A stretch of DNA of 38,474 bases from Bacteroidales bacterium. Its GTDB lineage: Bacteria; Bacteroidota; Bacteroidia; Bacteroidales; M50B96. How positions within the stretch are numbered: the stretch's first letter is position 1; each line of letters begins with the position of its first letter. The notes beneath the pieces were generated by a model. It was given only the letters and a program-made list of their open reading frames with translations, had not been told where the DNA came from and made no database searches. Location: contig JAIPAR010000006.1 of assembly GCA_021739985.1 (NCBI GenBank), forward strand, positions 1 through 38,474. Direction: 5' to 3'. Both the position numbers and the translations under genes were made by a program. Shown in pieces: positions 11,002-18,263 of the stretch.

Positions 11002-11811
11002 TTATTTAATGAATCTACTAACTGAGCGTGAGTTCCCTTGCTCAATTACAAGTAAATAATTTCCTTTAGTTAACATCGAAGCGTCCATGCGTTGCGTATT
11101 CATTCCTTCGGAAGCGTTTATTGTTAAGGTTTTAACAAGCGTGCCGCTGATGGAATAAATGCTTACCTGAACTAGTTTAGCATCTGATGTTTGGAAGTCA
11201 ATCAGTAATTCATTTACAACCGGGTTGGGATAAATGCTCACATTTTCAATGAATAATCCTGATTTCTTTTCATGATCAACAATAGTCGTATCAACAACCG
11301 TTGTATCAATTACAATAAGAGTGTCACAAATTCCGTCTCCATGATGACCATGGTGTCCTACCCAGGGATGACCATGATGACAAAGCGAATCAACAAAAGT
11401 GCTATCACCAAAACCAAATGGGAAGCCATGATGATTTAATGAATCAACATGAGAGCTGTCGCAGGTTCCTGGAAATCCATGTGTACCATGACCTAGAGAG
11501 CCAATGTGTGTGCTATCGCAGGTTCCGGGAAATCCATGTGTACCATGACCTAAAGAGCCAATATGTGTACTATCGCAAGTCCCTGGAAATCCAGTTGTTC
11601 CATGGAAAGGGTGACCGTGATGAGGATTTGCCAAAGAGTCATGGTTCAGGCTGTCAGCTGGAAAAGTTGGATGGTTAATTGAATCAGTTTGCGTACTGTC
11701 GCAAGTGCCTCCTCCGGGAAATCCACCATGAGGGTGTCCGCCTCCGTGTTGTGCGAATGTCATACCGGTTGTGAAAGCGATTGCGCTAATGAGTAGTAAT
11801 AATTTTTTCAT
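11002..11811 (-). CDS. Secreted His/Cys/Gly-rich repeat protein with T9SS type A sorting domain
   Basis: Signal peptide MKKLLLLISAIAFTTGMTFAQ; repeats GFPGTCDSTHIGSLGHGTH; C-terminal IYPNPVVNELLIDF...YLLVIEQGNSRSVSRFIK. Confidence 0.85.
   Translation of the reverse strand: MKKLLLLISAIAFTTGMTFAQHGGGHPHGGFPGGGTCDSTQTDSINHPTFPADSLNHDSLANPHHGHPFHGTTGFPGTCDSTHIGSLGHGTHGFPGTCDSTHIGSLGHGTHGFPGTCDSSHVDSLNHHGFPFGFGDSTFVDSLCHHGHPWVGHHGHHGDGICDTLIVIDTTVVDTTIVDHEKKSGLFIENVSIYPNPVVNELLIDFQTSDAKLVQVSIYSISGTLVKTLTINASEGMNTQRMDASMLTKGNYLLVIEQGNSRSVSRFIK
11461..11574. repeat. 57-bp tandem repeat (two near-identical units, partial flanking units)
   Basis: gcaggttcc.ggaaatccatgtgtaccatgacct at 11461 and 11518, third start at 11575; period 57 bp = 19 codons. 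Confidence 0.85.
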
Positions 11812-11880
11812 CGTTGTTATAATTTTTCTGGTTAACTAAATGTCAGATGATGACCTGGAAAATTAGTTGCATGCTTGCAA

Positions 11881-13404
11881 TTAAAATTTGATTAATTTTT
11901 TTTGAAAGATGCTTTCTCCTTGTACAATTTTTAACATGTAAAAGCCGGAAGCCAGGGAGTTCAGTGAGATTGCATCCGTATTTCCGGATGGAATTTCCTG
12001 ATTCCATAAAAGGGCCCCATTCATGGCATAGATGAAAACATGATAAGCACCCGGGCTTGCCAGCTGCAGATATACCTGACTGCCGGCCGGATTTGGATAT
12101 AGCCTGAATAATTCGTCATCCATATCCGGAACCGAGATGGTTACATCCGAATTTCCAACAACAAATTCATACAAAAGACTCTCAGGCTCTTCATCACTTA
12201 AATTAACCTGAACCGGATTGGACGGTTTATGAAAAATTTCAGTTCGCATACGATAATTCCCAATGGGTAAATGTTCAAACCGAAAGTATCCGTTGGTATC
12301 GGGGCACTGAAAGGCAATTACATCCTGTTGATTATTTTCCAGCAAAACCACAGCGGGAAGATGTTCTTGTTTAACACTATACACTTGATTATCTGATGGA
12401 CCTTGCGATTCATCATTCATGGTGTAAAGATGTTTGAAAGATGGTAAAGTAGAATCATTTCGAAGGATTCTACCTTGTATCGACCCATTACCATAGTATG
12501 GATTCGGATAAGACAATAAACTAAGACTGGTTGGAAGGTCTTGGAAATCCAGATTCTCGGCATCTTGCCAGGCTAGTGCATCTCCATAATAGACTGGCAA
12601 ATAGACCGGATAGGTGGGTGCTTCGGATTCAATTTCAGGCAATGCCCACAAAAAGGTTTGATTGACAGGAATATCCCATACCTGAGCAGTCCCTCCGTTA
12701 ACCGGAACTTTATAGATTGAGAAGTTTCCCGGGGCTGAAAACGGTACATACATAAAGACTTTCCCACTAGGAAGACCTATACTGGTCAACTCAAGGTTAA
12801 GTGTAAAATCAGGTGCCTGATCTAAAACAACTAAATAGCTTACCTGCGAAGAACAACCACTAAGTGTTTCAATTTCAAGCTGAACGATAAAACGGTCAAA
12901 CCCTCCATAATGATGAAAAGGATTCTCGGTGTCAGCATAATCGCCATCGCCAAAATCCCAATGATAAGCGATTATACTATCAGCCATCGAGGTATTGAAG
13001 AAACTGATACTGTGCCCATTCGATTCCAAATAGGGGAGGAAGTTTGCTGCACACTCAGGTGCAGGTGAATCATCACGGCATAGCTGCATGTTAAATTGCA
13101 TCGTGAGAGCTGATGATTCCAATAATCCATGCTGAAAGACTAATTTAGATTCACACCAGTGATGGGTATAAATAAAAATTTCTGCAACTTGCGAGCCATC
13201 TATTTGAAAATCAAGCTGATAAAACCCATTGTTATCAGTAAGCGTTTTCTTGTTCCCACCGGGGAAGTTGCTTAAGCTAATTACTTCATGTTGAACAAAG
13301 GCCTGATTGTGCTGGTCCATTACATAGCCTTCAACCCGAAATGTATAGGCTGTAACTTGCAATTGCACCAGAAAAAGCAAACTATAGGTAAGAATTGTTT
13401 TCAT
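11881..13404 (-). CDS. Secreted PKD-domain protein with T9SS type A sorting domain
   Basis: PKD motif ISFFNTSMADSIIAYHWDFGDGDYADTENPFHHY; C-terminal LYPNPAGSQVYLQL...GFYMLKIVQGESIFQKKLIKF. Confidence 0.85.
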   Translation of the reverse strand: MKTILTYSLLFLVQLQVTAYTFRVEGYVMDQHNQAFVQHEVISLSNFPGGNKKTLTDNNGFYQLDFQIDGSQVAEIFIYTHHWCESKLVFQHGLLESSALTMQFNMQLCRDDSPAPECAANFLPYLESNGHSISFFNTSMADSIIAYHWDFGDGDYADTENPFHHYGGFDRFIVQLEIETLSGCSSQVSYLVVLDQAPDFTLNLELTSIGLPSGKVFMYVPFSAPGNFSIYKVPVNGGTAQVWDIPVNQTFLWALPEIESEAPTYPVYLPVYYGDALAWQDAENLDFQDLPTSLSLLSYPNPYYGNGSIQGRILRNDSTLPSFKHLYTMNDESQGPSDNQVYSVKQEHLPAVVLLENNQQDVIAFQCPDTNGYFRFEHLPIGNYRMRTEIFHKPSNPVQVNLSDEEPESLLYEFVVGNSDVTISVPDMDDELFRLYPNPAGSQVYLQLASPGAYHVFIYAMNGALLWNQEIPSGNTDAISLNSLASGFYMLKIVQGESIFQKKLIKF

Positions 13405-13446: not shown

Positions 13447-14592
13447 CTAAAAATCGTAACGAAGCCCGATTCGCAGTCCCTGACTCGTTTGACTCATAAC
13501 TACAACCTGACTTTTATTATATTGATAAACAGGTACTTTTATCCAGGGTTCTGCCACTAAACTGAATTGCCGGGATAAAGGGAAAGTTATGTTGAATGAA
13601 AATGAAAAATTTACTTGAAATTTTTCGGTTTCACTGCCGTTTCTTTTTTTTCCATTGAATGGAGTCTCATTAGGGTAGAGCAGGTATCGGTCCTCCCGGA
13701 TTAACCAGGCAGGGATAATCCCGGCTTGAAGTTGCACCGGGAAACTACCATAATTAAACGTGTATCCTACCATTAATGGAATTTCGATTAGTGACCAGGT
13801 GCTTTGGTAGGAAATAGTATCATTTATCAGGGAGTCATTACGAACCCAGTTGGTGTCGGAAATATTTTCTTCATCCCAATACGTGTATGGATATTCAATA
13901 AACTGAGTAGAATCGCCCTGAAGCAAAGCATCGGTGTTATAAATACTGATTGTATCGAAAATCTGGGTGAAATAACTGGTGTCCTGAATAGTTGAAAAAC
14001 TGTCTGGAACTGAAAAATTTCTCCGTTGATAAAAACCTTCTCTGTATTGGGAGAATGAGATTCCGGCCTGAACACTCCAGGATGGATTGATTTTTCTGCC
14101 TAATGAAAAATCAATGGCATATCCGGGTAAAGGAGTTAAACTCTTCGAAAATAATTCCTCAAAGCTCTCAGTATGGTTCCCTTTAAATGTGGGAATGTTT
14201 TGATACAGGAATTCATTTAATCCAAGCATCAAATACCAGGAATTCATGGTCGGTAAAAAGGGCTTGGGGAGAAGGGAATCTTGGATAGGTATTGCCAGTT
14301 GTGTGAATCCGGCTGGATATTTATTTGCAAATGACTTAGGGTTAAAGGGAGTTGGTAAACTATCCACAAAGATGGTATCATACACATAAAGCGTGTCATA
14401 AACGTATTCGTAATTATACACCGTATCATATACGATTTGTTTGTTCGAGATTCGAATGGTGTCGTATAATTGATTGATATAATTAGAGTTAGTTGTTTTT
14501 GCTGATGAATAGGAAGGCATATAAAAGAACAAAACCGCTGAAAGAAGCAGGGTAAATCGGATTAGGCAGCTTTTGCATTTTAACTCACGCAT
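13447..14592 (-). CDS. Predicted outer-membrane beta-barrel protein with N-terminal VYDT-rich segment
   Basis: YDTVYNYEYVYDTLYVYDTIFVDS after a signal-like N-terminus; alternating-hydrophobic C-terminal half ending in RIGLRYDF. Confidence 0.65.
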   Translation of the reverse strand: MRELKCKSCLIRFTLLLSAVLFFYMPSYSSAKTTNSNYINQLYDTIRISNKQIVYDTVYNYEYVYDTLYVYDTIFVDSLPTPFNPKSFANKYPAGFTQLAIPIQDSLLPKPFLPTMNSWYLMLGLNEFLYQNIPTFKGNHTESFEELFSKSLTPLPGYAIDFSLGRKINPSWSVQAGISFSQYREGFYQRRNFSVPDSFSTIQDTSYFTQIFDTISIYNTDALLQGDSTQFIEYPYTYWDEENISDTNWVRNDSLINDTISYQSTWSLIEIPLMVGYTFNYGSFPVQLQAGIIPAWLIREDRYLLYPNETPFNGKKRNGSETEKFQVNFSFSFNITFPLSRQFSLVAEPWIKVPVYQYNKSQVVVMSQTSQGLRIGLRYDF

Positions 14593-14599
14593 GTATTCC

Positions 14600-15838
14600 T
14601 TACAGCTCTTCTGCCGGCTGTTGAATCACCTTTTTTTGTTGAATAGTTTTCCGGATTTGTTTCGGAACAACTATTTTTTCATGAATAATCACATTAACTG
14701 TGTCGTAAACGGTTGAATCGCTTACAACGGACTCGTTTTCAAGCAGGGTTGGTTGATTGGTATTGGATTGATTAACCGGCAGTGTATGTTCCTGATTAAG
14801 TTCTGGTTCGGTAAGGATTTCCGGCTGAGAGGTTGCTTCCTGAATGATTTCAGGCTCAGCAGGTATGCTAAGTTCAGTAGCTGGCTGAACGAGTTTCTCT
14901 TCGGCTGATGGATTGGAAACAAGTGTTGTGATGACTGTTCCAACACTAACAACTCCAACAACGGATGCCACCAGAACTGCTTGAACATGACTGGCAACGA
15001 ATTGCGAAATCTTGCCCACCAGATTGGTAGCGGTTTGTGTTTGGAGACCGGCTGTAGTTTGACTGGATGCAGAGGATAAAGATTGAGCGATTTGATCTTC
15101 TCCCAGCTTGTGGCTGAAAGCAGACCAGTCGGCAGCAGGTGGAACAACCAGGTCGCCCAATTCCTGCCGGAACAATTCGTCAATATATTTTAGTTCATCA
15201 CTCATAGGTATCAACAGTAAAGCTACTGCCTTTTTAGATATGTTTTGTTTCTCTTTAATCTGTGTTTTTTCAAATAACTTCTTTTGGATGAGTTTGCGCG
15301 CCCGTAACAATTGTGTCTTCGAGGTAGCTTCTGCAATCCCAAGCATTTCGGCTATTTCCTTATGCTTGTACTCTTCAAAAACTGACAGGTTGAACACCAT
15401 TCTGAAACCTTCCGGTAGTTGAGTGATGATTTCCATCAATTCGTCACGACTAAAATCAGCATGCTGAATTCGGTCTTTGACGGATAAATCGGCTTCTTCA
15501 ACTTCCTCCGGAAATTCATCCGGAATCGATGATATGCGGGATTCTTCTCCAAAGGTGGTGGAATTCTGCTGATCATTATACTTTCTAAAATGCATCAGAG
15601 CCGTATTCACCATAATCCTTCGAACCCAACCTTCGAAGCTTCCTTTATCGGCAAACTGTTCGATTTTTGTAAAAACTGTCAAAAAACCTTCCTGCATGAT
15701 ATCTTCCGCCTCTTCCCTGGTACGTGTGTAGCGCATGCAGACACCGAGCATCATCGGAGCAAATCGCTCATATACAATTTTCTGTGCTTTCTGGTTCCGA
15801 AGCTTACAGGCTTCAATCACCGATTGATCTACCCTCAT
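14600..15838 (-). CDS. ECF sigma-70 factor fused to a single-pass membrane segment with periplasmic tail
   Basis: Residues 1 to about 195 carry sigma region 2 and region 4 (HKEIAEMLGIAEATSKTQLLRARKLI); residue 212 on reads MSDELKYIDELFRQELGD...; TM AVLVASVVGVVSVGTVITTLV; Glu/Pro-rich tail with VYDTV. Confidence 0.85.
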   Translation of the reverse strand: MRVDQSVIEACKLRNQKAQKIVYERFAPMMLGVCMRYTRTREEAEDIMQEGFLTVFTKIEQFADKGSFEGWVRRIMVNTALMHFRKYNDQQNSTTFGEESRISSIPDEFPEEVEEADLSVKDRIQHADFSRDELMEIITQLPEGFRMVFNLSVFEEYKHKEIAEMLGIAEATSKTQLLRARKLIQKKLFEKTQIKEKQNISKKAVALLLIPMSDELKYIDELFRQELGDLVVPPAADWSAFSHKLGEDQIAQSLSSASSQTTAGLQTQTATNLVGKISQFVASHVQAVLVASVVGVVSVGTVITTLVSNPSAEEKLVQPATELSIPAEPEIIQEATSQPEILTEPELNQEHTLPVNQSNTNQPTLLENESVVSDSTVYDTVNVIIHEKIVVPKQIRKTIQQKKVIQQPAEEL

Positions 15839-15932
15839 ACTCTTTCACATTGACGAGATGCAATCTTATAAATTTGGTTGCATGTTCGTATCAAAAAAAT
15901 CATTTTAGTTCAATATTTTAGATGTCTAAAGT

Positions 15933-18263
15933 ATGAAAATTTCACGTATGTCGAAGCTGCTATCTAATCTATTTGCATTCACCATTTTATTCATTTTTTC
16001 AATGTGTAATTCGCCTTCCGGTAATCCCGGAGAAGCAGCAAAACCTGCCGGGAAGATGCTGACTTCGTATGTGAATCCTTTTATTGGAACTCAAAACATG
16101 GGTCATACTTTTCCGGGTGCCGCTGCTCCTTTCGGAATGGTTCAACTTAGTCCCGATACAAGACAGCTTCCAATGTTCATCGATGGGCTCTATAATCCTG
16201 ATGTGTATAAGTATTGTGCAGGTTATCAATATGATGACTCGCTCATATATGGATTTAGCCATACCCATTTTAGCGGTACAGGTCATTCCGATTTAGGTGA
16301 TTTTTTGATGATTCCGGCTTCCGGTGTCAAATCATTGATGCCTCAGGAATATGCCCTTGCCTTTTCACATCAACAGGAAAAAGCATCACCCGGTTATTAT
16401 CAGGTCTATTTTCAGCAAAAGGGAATCAATGTAGAGCTTACGGCCAGCGAACGGGTTGGTGTTCATCGGTATCGATTTGAAAATCAGGAACAACATAGTT
16501 TGATGATTGATTTTCGTTCCAATATCTACCCCCATGATGATAAAAATGTCTGGACTTTTGTAAGGGTTGAAAATGATTCAACCATTACCGGTTATCGACA
16601 AACTACAGGCTGGGCCCGGACACGGATTGTTTATTTCGCACTCCGATTTTCCAAGGCTTTTACATCCTATGGGCATCATAAATTTGATTCCGGATTGTAC
16701 AAGGGTTTTTATCGAAAATTTGATGAAGAACATAATTTTCCGGAGATGGCCGGCCGTGAGCTTATGGCCTGGTTCGATTTCGGAACCGAGCCCGGGGAAG
16801 AAGTCCAGGCTTTCATGGCTCTTTCATCGGTTTCGACGGATGGAGCCCTGAAGAACCTCAAGAAAGAAGCCGGCTCCTTTGACTTTGAAACCATTTTAGC
16901 TCGAACTGAGCATAAATGGGAGCAGGAATTATCCCGGATTCGAATTGAAACCTTGCAAGAGGAGGATAAAATCTCTTTCTATACTTCGCTCTATCATACA
17001 ATGTTAAGTCCGGTGATATATGAAGATATAGATGGACGCTATCGAGGTCTGGATCAGAATAATCATAATTCAGCCGGATTTCGGAATTATACCATTTTCT
17101 CCTTGTGGGATACCTACCGGACACTGCACCCACTCTTCAATCTTATTCAGTCTGAAAGAAACAACGATATGATTCAAAGTATGCTGGCTCATCAGGAAGA
17201 ATCGGTGCATGGTATGCTACCCGTGTGGAGCCACTATTCCAACGAGAATTGGTGTATGATTGGGTATCATGCCGTGAGTGTTATCACGGATGCATTTGTC
17301 AATCAAACAACTTCAGCCGATATTCATAAGGCATTAAAAGCTTGTGTTGCAACGGCTAATGTCGATTATTTTGATGGGATTGGCTCGTATAAAGAGCTTG
17401 GATTTGTAGCTGAAGATTTGAGCTCCAATTCGGTTTCCAAAACCCTGGAATATGCTTATAATGACTGGTGTATTGCTCGTCTTGCCAAGCTGGCCGGAGA
17501 TACGGTCATCGAAGCGGAATTTCTCAAACGCTCCGGGTATTTTGAGCATCTATTTGATTCGATAAGTGGATTTATGCGCCCTAAACTTGCCAATGGCGCC
17601 TGGAAAGAGCCCTTCGACCCCATGGATACACATGGTCAGGGTTTTATTGAGGGAAATGCATATAATTATGGTTTATATATTCCCCATCATCCTGAGAGAC
17701 TGGTAGAATTATTAGGAGGGAAAAGCCACTTTTCAGCTTTCCTGGATACGATTTTCAATATGGAACTGGATGATAAATACATGGAGAAAAATGAAGATAT
17801 TACTCGGGAAGGATTAATTGGCACTTATGTGCATGGCAATGAACCGGGTCATCATATTCCCTATCTTTATAATTATTCCGATGCTCCCTGGAAAACACAG
17901 GAAAGAGTGAGAATGATTTTGCGCAAGATGTATTTGCCTGAGATTGATGGACTTTGTGGGAATGATGATGCCGGACAAATGAGCGCCTGGTATATTATGA
18001 GTTCCCTTGGATTTTACCCGCTTTGTCCGGGTTCCGGAATGTATGAAATAGGAAGCCCGCTGGTGGTATCTGCCATGGTTCGCTTACCGAGGAATCTCAT
18101 CCTCTACATTGAAACTGAAAATCAATCCGAAGAGAATGTATATGTTCAGACTGTAAGATGGAATGGAAAAGTTATCCAAGGAAATCAGCTTCCCGTTGCT
18201 GAATTATTGCAAGGCGGGAAGCTGATTTTTACGATGGGACCAAATCCTTCGAAAGAATTATAA
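15933..18263 (+). CDS. GH92 family alpha-mannosidase-like lipoprotein
   Basis: VNPFIGTQNMGHTFPGAAAPFGMVQLSPD, FSHTHFSGTGHSDLGDF, GNEPGHHIPYLYNY, GNDDAGQMSAWYIMSSLGFYPLCPGSGMYEIGSPL; lipobox IFSMC. Confidence 0.95.
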   Translation: MKISRMSKLLSNLFAFTILFIFSMCNSPSGNPGEAAKPAGKMLTSYVNPFIGTQNMGHTFPGAAAPFGMVQLSPDTRQLPMFIDGLYNPDVYKYCAGYQYDDSLIYGFSHTHFSGTGHSDLGDFLMIPASGVKSLMPQEYALAFSHQQEKASPGYYQVYFQQKGINVELTASERVGVHRYRFENQEQHSLMIDFRSNIYPHDDKNVWTFVRVENDSTITGYRQTTGWARTRIVYFALRFSKAFTSYGHHKFDSGLYKGFYRKFDEEHNFPEMAGRELMAWFDFGTEPGEEVQAFMALSSVSTDGALKNLKKEAGSFDFETILARTEHKWEQELSRIRIETLQEEDKISFYTSLYHTMLSPVIYEDIDGRYRGLDQNNHNSAGFRNYTIFSLWDTYRTLHPLFNLIQSERNNDMIQSMLAHQEESVHGMLPVWSHYSNENWCMIGYHAVSVITDAFVNQTTSADIHKALKACVATANVDYFDGIGSYKELGFVAEDLSSNSVSKTLEYAYNDWCIARLAKLAGDTVIEAEFLKRSGYFEHLFDSISGFMRPKLANGAWKEPFDPMDTHGQGFIEGNAYNYGLYIPHHPERLVELLGGKSHFSAFLDTIFNMELDDKYMEKNEDITREGLIGTYVHGNEPGHHIPYLYNYSDAPWKTQERVRMILRKMYLPEIDGLCGNDDAGQMSAWYIMSSLGFYPLCPGSGMYEIGSPLVVSAMVRLPRNLILYIETENQSEENVYVQTVRWNGKVIQGNQLPVAELLQGGKLIFTMGPNPSKEL

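Follow-up and report, generated by a model that had tools for sequence, protein, structure and literature searches.

A sigma factor joined to a predicted Dma-type inhibitor, with a separately encoded outer-membrane barrel, in a Bacteroidales genome

The stretch of Bacteroidales DNA analysed here (38,474 nt, hereafter the window) carries on its minus strand a single reading frame, running from an ATG at 15838 to a stop codon at 14600-14602, that joins an ECF sigma factor to a predicted membrane regulator (Table 1). An earlier note on this DNA had assigned residues 1 to ~195 to an ECF sigma factor, and this is borne out: Sigma70_r2 (residues 23-87) and Sigma70_r4_2 (residues 132-183) both score above their curated Pfam cut-offs, and the sigma70-ECF model TIGR02937 matches with 99 bits against a cut-off of 42.9. 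As in an ECF sigma factor, regions 2 and 4 occur without further sigma domains. The same note had followed the frame through Met212 (ATG at 15205, the start of MSDELKYIDELF), a hydrophobic span and a tail, and we likewise found a span at residues 285-303 followed by a tail of 109 residues, which has no Pfam family match. A low-complexity stretch of ~40 residues separates the anti-sigma segment from the helix. In the structure model, only sigma regions 2 and 4 are predicted with confidence; the tail is disordered, the anti-sigma helix reaches a pLDDT of ~65, and docking of the anti-sigma segment on the sigma cannot be read from the model. The closest solved structures are sigma-E and AlgU chains, taken from complexes with their cognate anti-sigma factors.

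Immediately downstream lies a gene for a separate barrel, whose product starts with a hydrophobic stretch of the kind seen in signal peptides. Its OMP_b-brl_2 match falls slightly below the curated cut-off, and the best structural matches to its model are OmpA-type barrels. Two further genes on the same strand encode proteins with type IX secretion tails. In the product of the fourth gene, near-identical tandem repeats (GTCDSTHIGSLGHGTHGFP...) precede this tail; its counterparts in two relatives, G002 and G087, are Gly-rich and have D-T-I/V repeats instead. The divergent neighbour at 15933-18263 on the plus strand resembles, by eye only, a family 92 glycoside hydrolase (alpha-mannosidase).

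Table 1 Positions of genes, protein segments and promoter motifs at the fused sigma locus
Feature	Position	Strand	Remarks
Fused ECF sigma / anti-sigma segment / transmembrane / periplasmic tail gene, single frame	14600..15838	-	412 aa
Sigma region 2 (residues 1-90)	15569..15838	-	Sigma70_r2 E 6.8e-17; pLDDT mostly >90
Sigma region 4 (residues 115-195)	15254..15496	-	Sigma70_r4_2 E 1.1e-14; helices modelled confidently
Bridge (residues 200-212)	15203..15241	-	End of basic run and hydrophobic 8-mer VALLLIPM, immediately preceding the anti-sigma segment
Predicted anti-sigma segment (residues 212-246, MSDELKYIDELF...PPAADW)	15101..15205	-	Profile search and alignment
Predicted transmembrane helix (residues 285-303)	14930..14986	-	19 residues, mean hydropathy 2.27
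Periplasmic tail, 109 residues	14603..14929	-	Predicted disordered; C-terminal basic strand-like motif VYDTVNVIIHEKIVVPKQIRKTI
Detached partner: N-terminal signal, YDT repeats, 8-stranded outer-membrane barrel	13447..14592	-	381 aa; begins 7 nt past the stop of the fused gene
Third gene: PKD-containing surface protein, type IX secretion tail	11881..13404	-	507 aa; conserved in related loci
Fourth gene: Gly/His-rich repeat protein, type IX secretion tail	11002..11811	-	269 aa; Por_Secre_tail E 8.1e-14
ECF-type promoter motif GCAACC-N14-GCATCT	15856..15881	-	17 nt before the ATG of the fused gene
Second promoter motif copy, upstream of the fourth gene	11845..11870	-	One mismatch in the window

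The earlier note had kept as a live alternative that the fusion results from an indel or assembly error: the A5 run upstream of the junction would truly be A6, and the sigma would end at a TGA overlapping the start of a second gene. Its arithmetic is correct, in that translation would stop at the TGA within ATGAGTGATG if one A were added. The genome assembly is moreover a draft in 134 contigs (60% complete), and sigma and anti-sigma are separate, overlapping genes in some related loci (overlaps of 1, 8 and 11 nt). Comparing the junction among relatives, a check named in that note, nevertheless returned one fused frame and not two genes. Seven further genomes have this sigma-to-membrane fusion, likewise uninterrupted by stops: G001 from the same genus (47% identity over residues 1-409), G002 from the same family (41% over residues 2-400), three genomes of the same order (G087, G134 and G270) and two of the same class (G454 and G388). 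Among the matches listed, 6 of the 295 genomes in the order sample carry the fusion, and the class sample, searched at a strict threshold, adds two fused genomes besides the window's own.

Across 35 junction codons, the window and G001 differ by 16, 3 and 22 substitutions at codon positions 1, 2 and 3, respectively, and this strong conservation of second positions identifies the frame as the translated one. At the join, all eight fused proteins pass from a basic run through a hydrophobic 8-mer and 3-7 further residues to YID; the in-frame junction is thus conserved in character in 8/8 proteins, whereas the shifted frame would yield an unrelated end. The TGA inside ATGAGTGATG recurs at an identical offset in G001 and is a by-product of the M-S-D codons. 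As judged from these sequence comparisons, the fused frame is almost certainly genuine. With stop-free fusions in eight genomes, two of which lack a possible internal start near the junction (see below), we reject the two-gene layout, whose probability we consider negligible.

Met212 might also be used as an internal start, so that a free anti-sigma fragment would be made alongside the full-length protein. In five of the eight fused proteins the anti-sigma segment begins with a Met, and Met212 matches the start codon of the separate anti-sigma gene in relatives in which the two genes are split. Against such dual products, G270, G454 and G388 lack this Met, and neither G454 nor G388 has an ATG, GTG or TTG within 15 codons of the junction. 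Nor was a ribosome signal obvious by eye before Met212, although such signals are seldom used by Bacteroidota. At least in G454 and G388, both halves must therefore be made as one chain. These three genomes rule out an internal start as a required feature, and we consider its use at the window locus improbable.

Several separate sigma proteins, too, have a short hydrophobic motif at their C-terminus, and the bridge therefore probably derives from a former sigma C-terminus. One idea is that it could tell a processing protease where to stop.

The relatives also speak to the origin of the second half, which the earlier note had taken for a membrane regulator that is usually a separate gene. Genomes with the fusion carry many paralogous loci in which a separate sigma gene is followed by one long ORF, and the latter leads from a similar short segment (MKDEMNYIDDLF...) through a helix and a long low-complexity stretch to a C-terminal barrel. 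This is the arrangement described for Dma proteins, namely an anti-sigma domain, a transmembrane helix, a disordered tether and a C-terminal beta-barrel, with the sigma factor encoded adjacently (PMC13088901); a similar anti-sigma factor is described in PMC9308784. A profile of the anti-sigma segment, drawn from fused and split loci, matched the N-termini of Dma-like ORFs with E values from ~1e-10 at best down to marginal ones, the Dma-like ORF L142 of the window's own genome reaching only 2e-4; with so short a segment, homology to any single paralogue is weak. A second profile, built from the detached barrels, matched the C-terminal barrels of Dma-like ORFs far more strongly (E 9e-27 for L142, 4e-46 at best). 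L142 itself (L142:2218-3834, on C23) has a periplasmic tether that consists of near-identical repeats in a long array (STSSNINTTIASN).

Relatives and profile searches thus support the reading of the second half as a regulator that is normally encoded separately; it is very probably the anti-sigma segment and membrane anchor of a Dma-type protein, with the anti-sigma segment as the predicted equivalent of the Dma-like N-terminus. Since both profiles match Dma-like ORFs, the window locus appears to consist of Dma modules cut elsewhere, with sigma and inhibitor joined and the barrel separate. Dma1/Dma2 with Das1/Das2 of Bacteroides thetaiotaomicron, and EcfO-Reo in related species, likewise pair an anti-sigma segment, one transmembrane helix and a disordered periplasmic tether with an ECF sigma and an outer-membrane barrel (PMC13088901, PMC9308784). 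There, however, the sigma has its own neighbouring gene and the barrel forms the C-terminus of the anti-sigma protein, whereas here the anti-sigma protein itself has the sigma as its N-terminal domain, the chain stops at 412 aa within the tail, and the barrel is separately secreted. Dma3 of B. thetaiotaomicron resembles the fused protein in that this anti-sigma protein, too, starts with a sigma domain (PMC13088901). By its description in that paper, it is set apart as barrel-bearing: the fused chain ends in the periplasm and so does not unite sigma, anti-sigma, helix, tether and barrel.

The relation to the ECF21 group, which comprises the sigma partners of Dma proteins, was gauged by gene neighbourhood and by tree position relative to sigma genes linked to Dma-like ORFs. 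In a tree of 89 loci built from sigma rows only (added anti-sigma fragments misaligned), the eight fused genes group with six split loci, that is, loci with a separate sigma and a short anti-sigma to which no barrel is attached. Support for this 14-row clade is 84/90, which is not strong and does not earn a star, and the barrel-bearing Dma-like loci fall outside it. Several of the six split loci (G288, G205, G172) have a separate barrel gene downstream. The grouping suggests that barrel detachment came first and joining of the sigma later. As to the number of fusion origins, the best tree requires four changes, and a single fused clade is not rejected (p-AU 0.34).

In the window, G001, G002, G087 and G134 alike, the barrel gene stands apart, occupies the same position and encodes an N-terminal signal of its own. 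In G270 and G454, a secreted gene with YDT-like repeats takes the barrel position, its body differing in G270: there, the gene after the fused sigma (L098:1334-2704) encodes a signal and YDT repeats followed by GVQ-AGIxNVAG-type repeats rather than an OmpA-like barrel. We consider it probable that the detached barrel is the functional partner of the fused protein. The post-helix tails of the eight fused proteins measure 94-122 residues; at ~0.35 nm per extended residue, they would be long enough to bridge the 20-25 nm of a periplasm. The last part of most tails, in fused and split loci alike, is a basic strand-like motif that includes a DT pair (KKxI...DTI), and the detached barrels start with DTVYxYDTV. 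A strand-to-strand contact between tail and barrel is an attractive guess, to which we give an even chance.

Relatives of the third gene lie beside the fused genes of G001, G002 and G087, beside two split loci and beside two barrel-bearing loci. Those at L008:4928-6490 and L009:4945-6474, with PKD domain and type IX tail, adjoin barrel-bearing Dma-like loci, and secreted proteins of this type may be general companions of such systems.

The promoter motif at 15856-15881 is the only exact match within the window, where 0.01 would be expected. The form GCAACY-N13/14-GYATCT stands just upstream of 12 of the 14 sigma genes in the fused and split clade, when counted with the relaxed motif GC[AC]AC[CT] plus xxATCT at unchanged spacing; in 2000 shuffled controls, the mean count was 0.0115 and the maximum 1. 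At L131, the motif occurs on both strands (1325, minus; 1349, plus) upstream of a split-type sigma gene, which suggests a divergent promoter. The copy upstream of the fourth gene has exact counterparts in G002 and G087. A genome-wide scan returned 3-5 exact sites per genome, and we estimate that off-locus sites are at about chance level once those in the locus are removed, so that we propose no larger regulon. The motif makes autoregulation quite probable, and the predicted regulon comprises the sigma's own operon and the fourth gene. The locus looks like a private surface-protein switch. Of the layout proposed in the earlier note, then, the fusion stood; the minus strand, the partner barrel gene, the Dma-type kinship and the dedicated promoter had all been missed.

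We consider it likely that the locus encodes an autoregulated surface-sensing module in which the sigma is covalently tethered to its inhibitor and activated by proteolytic release. One polypeptide would comprise a cytosolic ECF sigma, a basic-hydrophobic bridge, the anti-sigma segment, one helix and a periplasmic tail of ~110 residues, as a re-cut trans-envelope regulator of the Dma type in which the barrel is made as a protein of its own, probably from the same transcript. At rest, the anti-sigma segment would inhibit the sigma in cis and keep it at the inner membrane, while the tail would reach the outer membrane and probably touch the YDT-repeat N-terminus of the barrel. A surface event, perhaps a ligand or the condition of the partners secreted by the type IX system, would change the contact between tail and barrel; the tail would be trimmed, a site-2 protease would cut the helix, and the released sigma fragment would transcribe its own operon and the fourth gene.

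An alternative is that the odd layout marks a degenerate system, in which the fusion silences the sigma permanently and the locus is decaying. Nothing but that layout speaks for it, and it is highly improbable in view of the conservation of frame, bridge, promoter motif and neighbours across genera and families and of the codon-position bias in sigma and junction codons. Within a functional module, the sigma cannot leave its inhibitor by dissociation, so proteolytic removal of the anti-sigma part would be the likeliest route to activation. The window's genome has an S2P-type protease gene, and the site-2 protease family is represented in G000, G001, G002 and G087; to our knowledge such genes are universal, and their presence therefore proves little. 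Alternatively, the signal might merely loosen the anti-sigma segment, and polymerase would be recruited at the membrane without proteolysis. No recognisable protease cut site is visible in the fused protein, and the ~40 low-complexity residues before the helix could serve as a flexible leash; yet we know of no sigma factor that transcribes while held at the membrane. IutY, the sigma/anti-sigma hybrid that has been characterised, is moreover trimmed and cut by Prc and RseP, which releases its sigma (PMC5411451). Activation without cleavage thus seems unlikely, and by analogy with IutY we favour proteolytic release, with modest confidence.

IutY of Pseudomonas putida (ECF243) is the closest working analogue: a single chain holds its sigma, its transmembrane segment and its periplasmic anti-sigma part, and the outer-membrane partner is a separate protein (PMC5411451, PMC8999054). 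IutY signals via the siderophore (aerobactin) receptor IutA; here, by contrast, the partner is a small OmpA-like 8-strand barrel and no siderophore receptor, and a Pfam search found no FecR-like domain in the tail of the fused protein. The likeness of the second half to IutY looks convergent. Actinobacterial ECF48, ECF52 and ECF53 (e.g. SCO4117) also append a C-terminal transmembrane regulatory extension to the sigma; theirs contains a zinc-finger anti-sigma domain, which Pfam did not find in the fused protein, and no outer-membrane barrel partner is described for these groups (PMC8999054). Sigma/anti-sigma hybrids (IutY; ECF48/52/53; PMC8999054) and an N-terminal sigma as in Dma3 (PMC13088901) are thus already known. 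In the part of the literature covered, we found no description of a Dma-type inhibitor fused to its sigma, with a separate barrel gene and its own promoter motif, conserved across families.

Taken together, the loci admit a joint reading that we offer as tentative and rather doubtful: a single trans-envelope device of sigma, anti-sigma, tether and barrel may have been re-cut by evolution into interchangeable layouts. In the present one, the basic strand of the tail and the YDT repeats of the barrel would zip together non-covalently, and the layout would thereby read out the type IX-secreted proteins of the locus and re-express them via the private promoter.

Dma-type regulators are a recent discovery, and the route by which a signal passes from the outer-membrane barrel to the cytosolic sigma is an open question. 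The locus described here lacks a covalent link between barrel and inhibitor, while its sigma and inhibitor cannot dissociate. The barrel therefore need not pull on a covalent tether, and activation cannot consist in simple dissociation of the sigma. With a compact predicted regulon, consisting of its own operon and the fourth gene, and a clear promoter motif, the system would offer a tractable test case.
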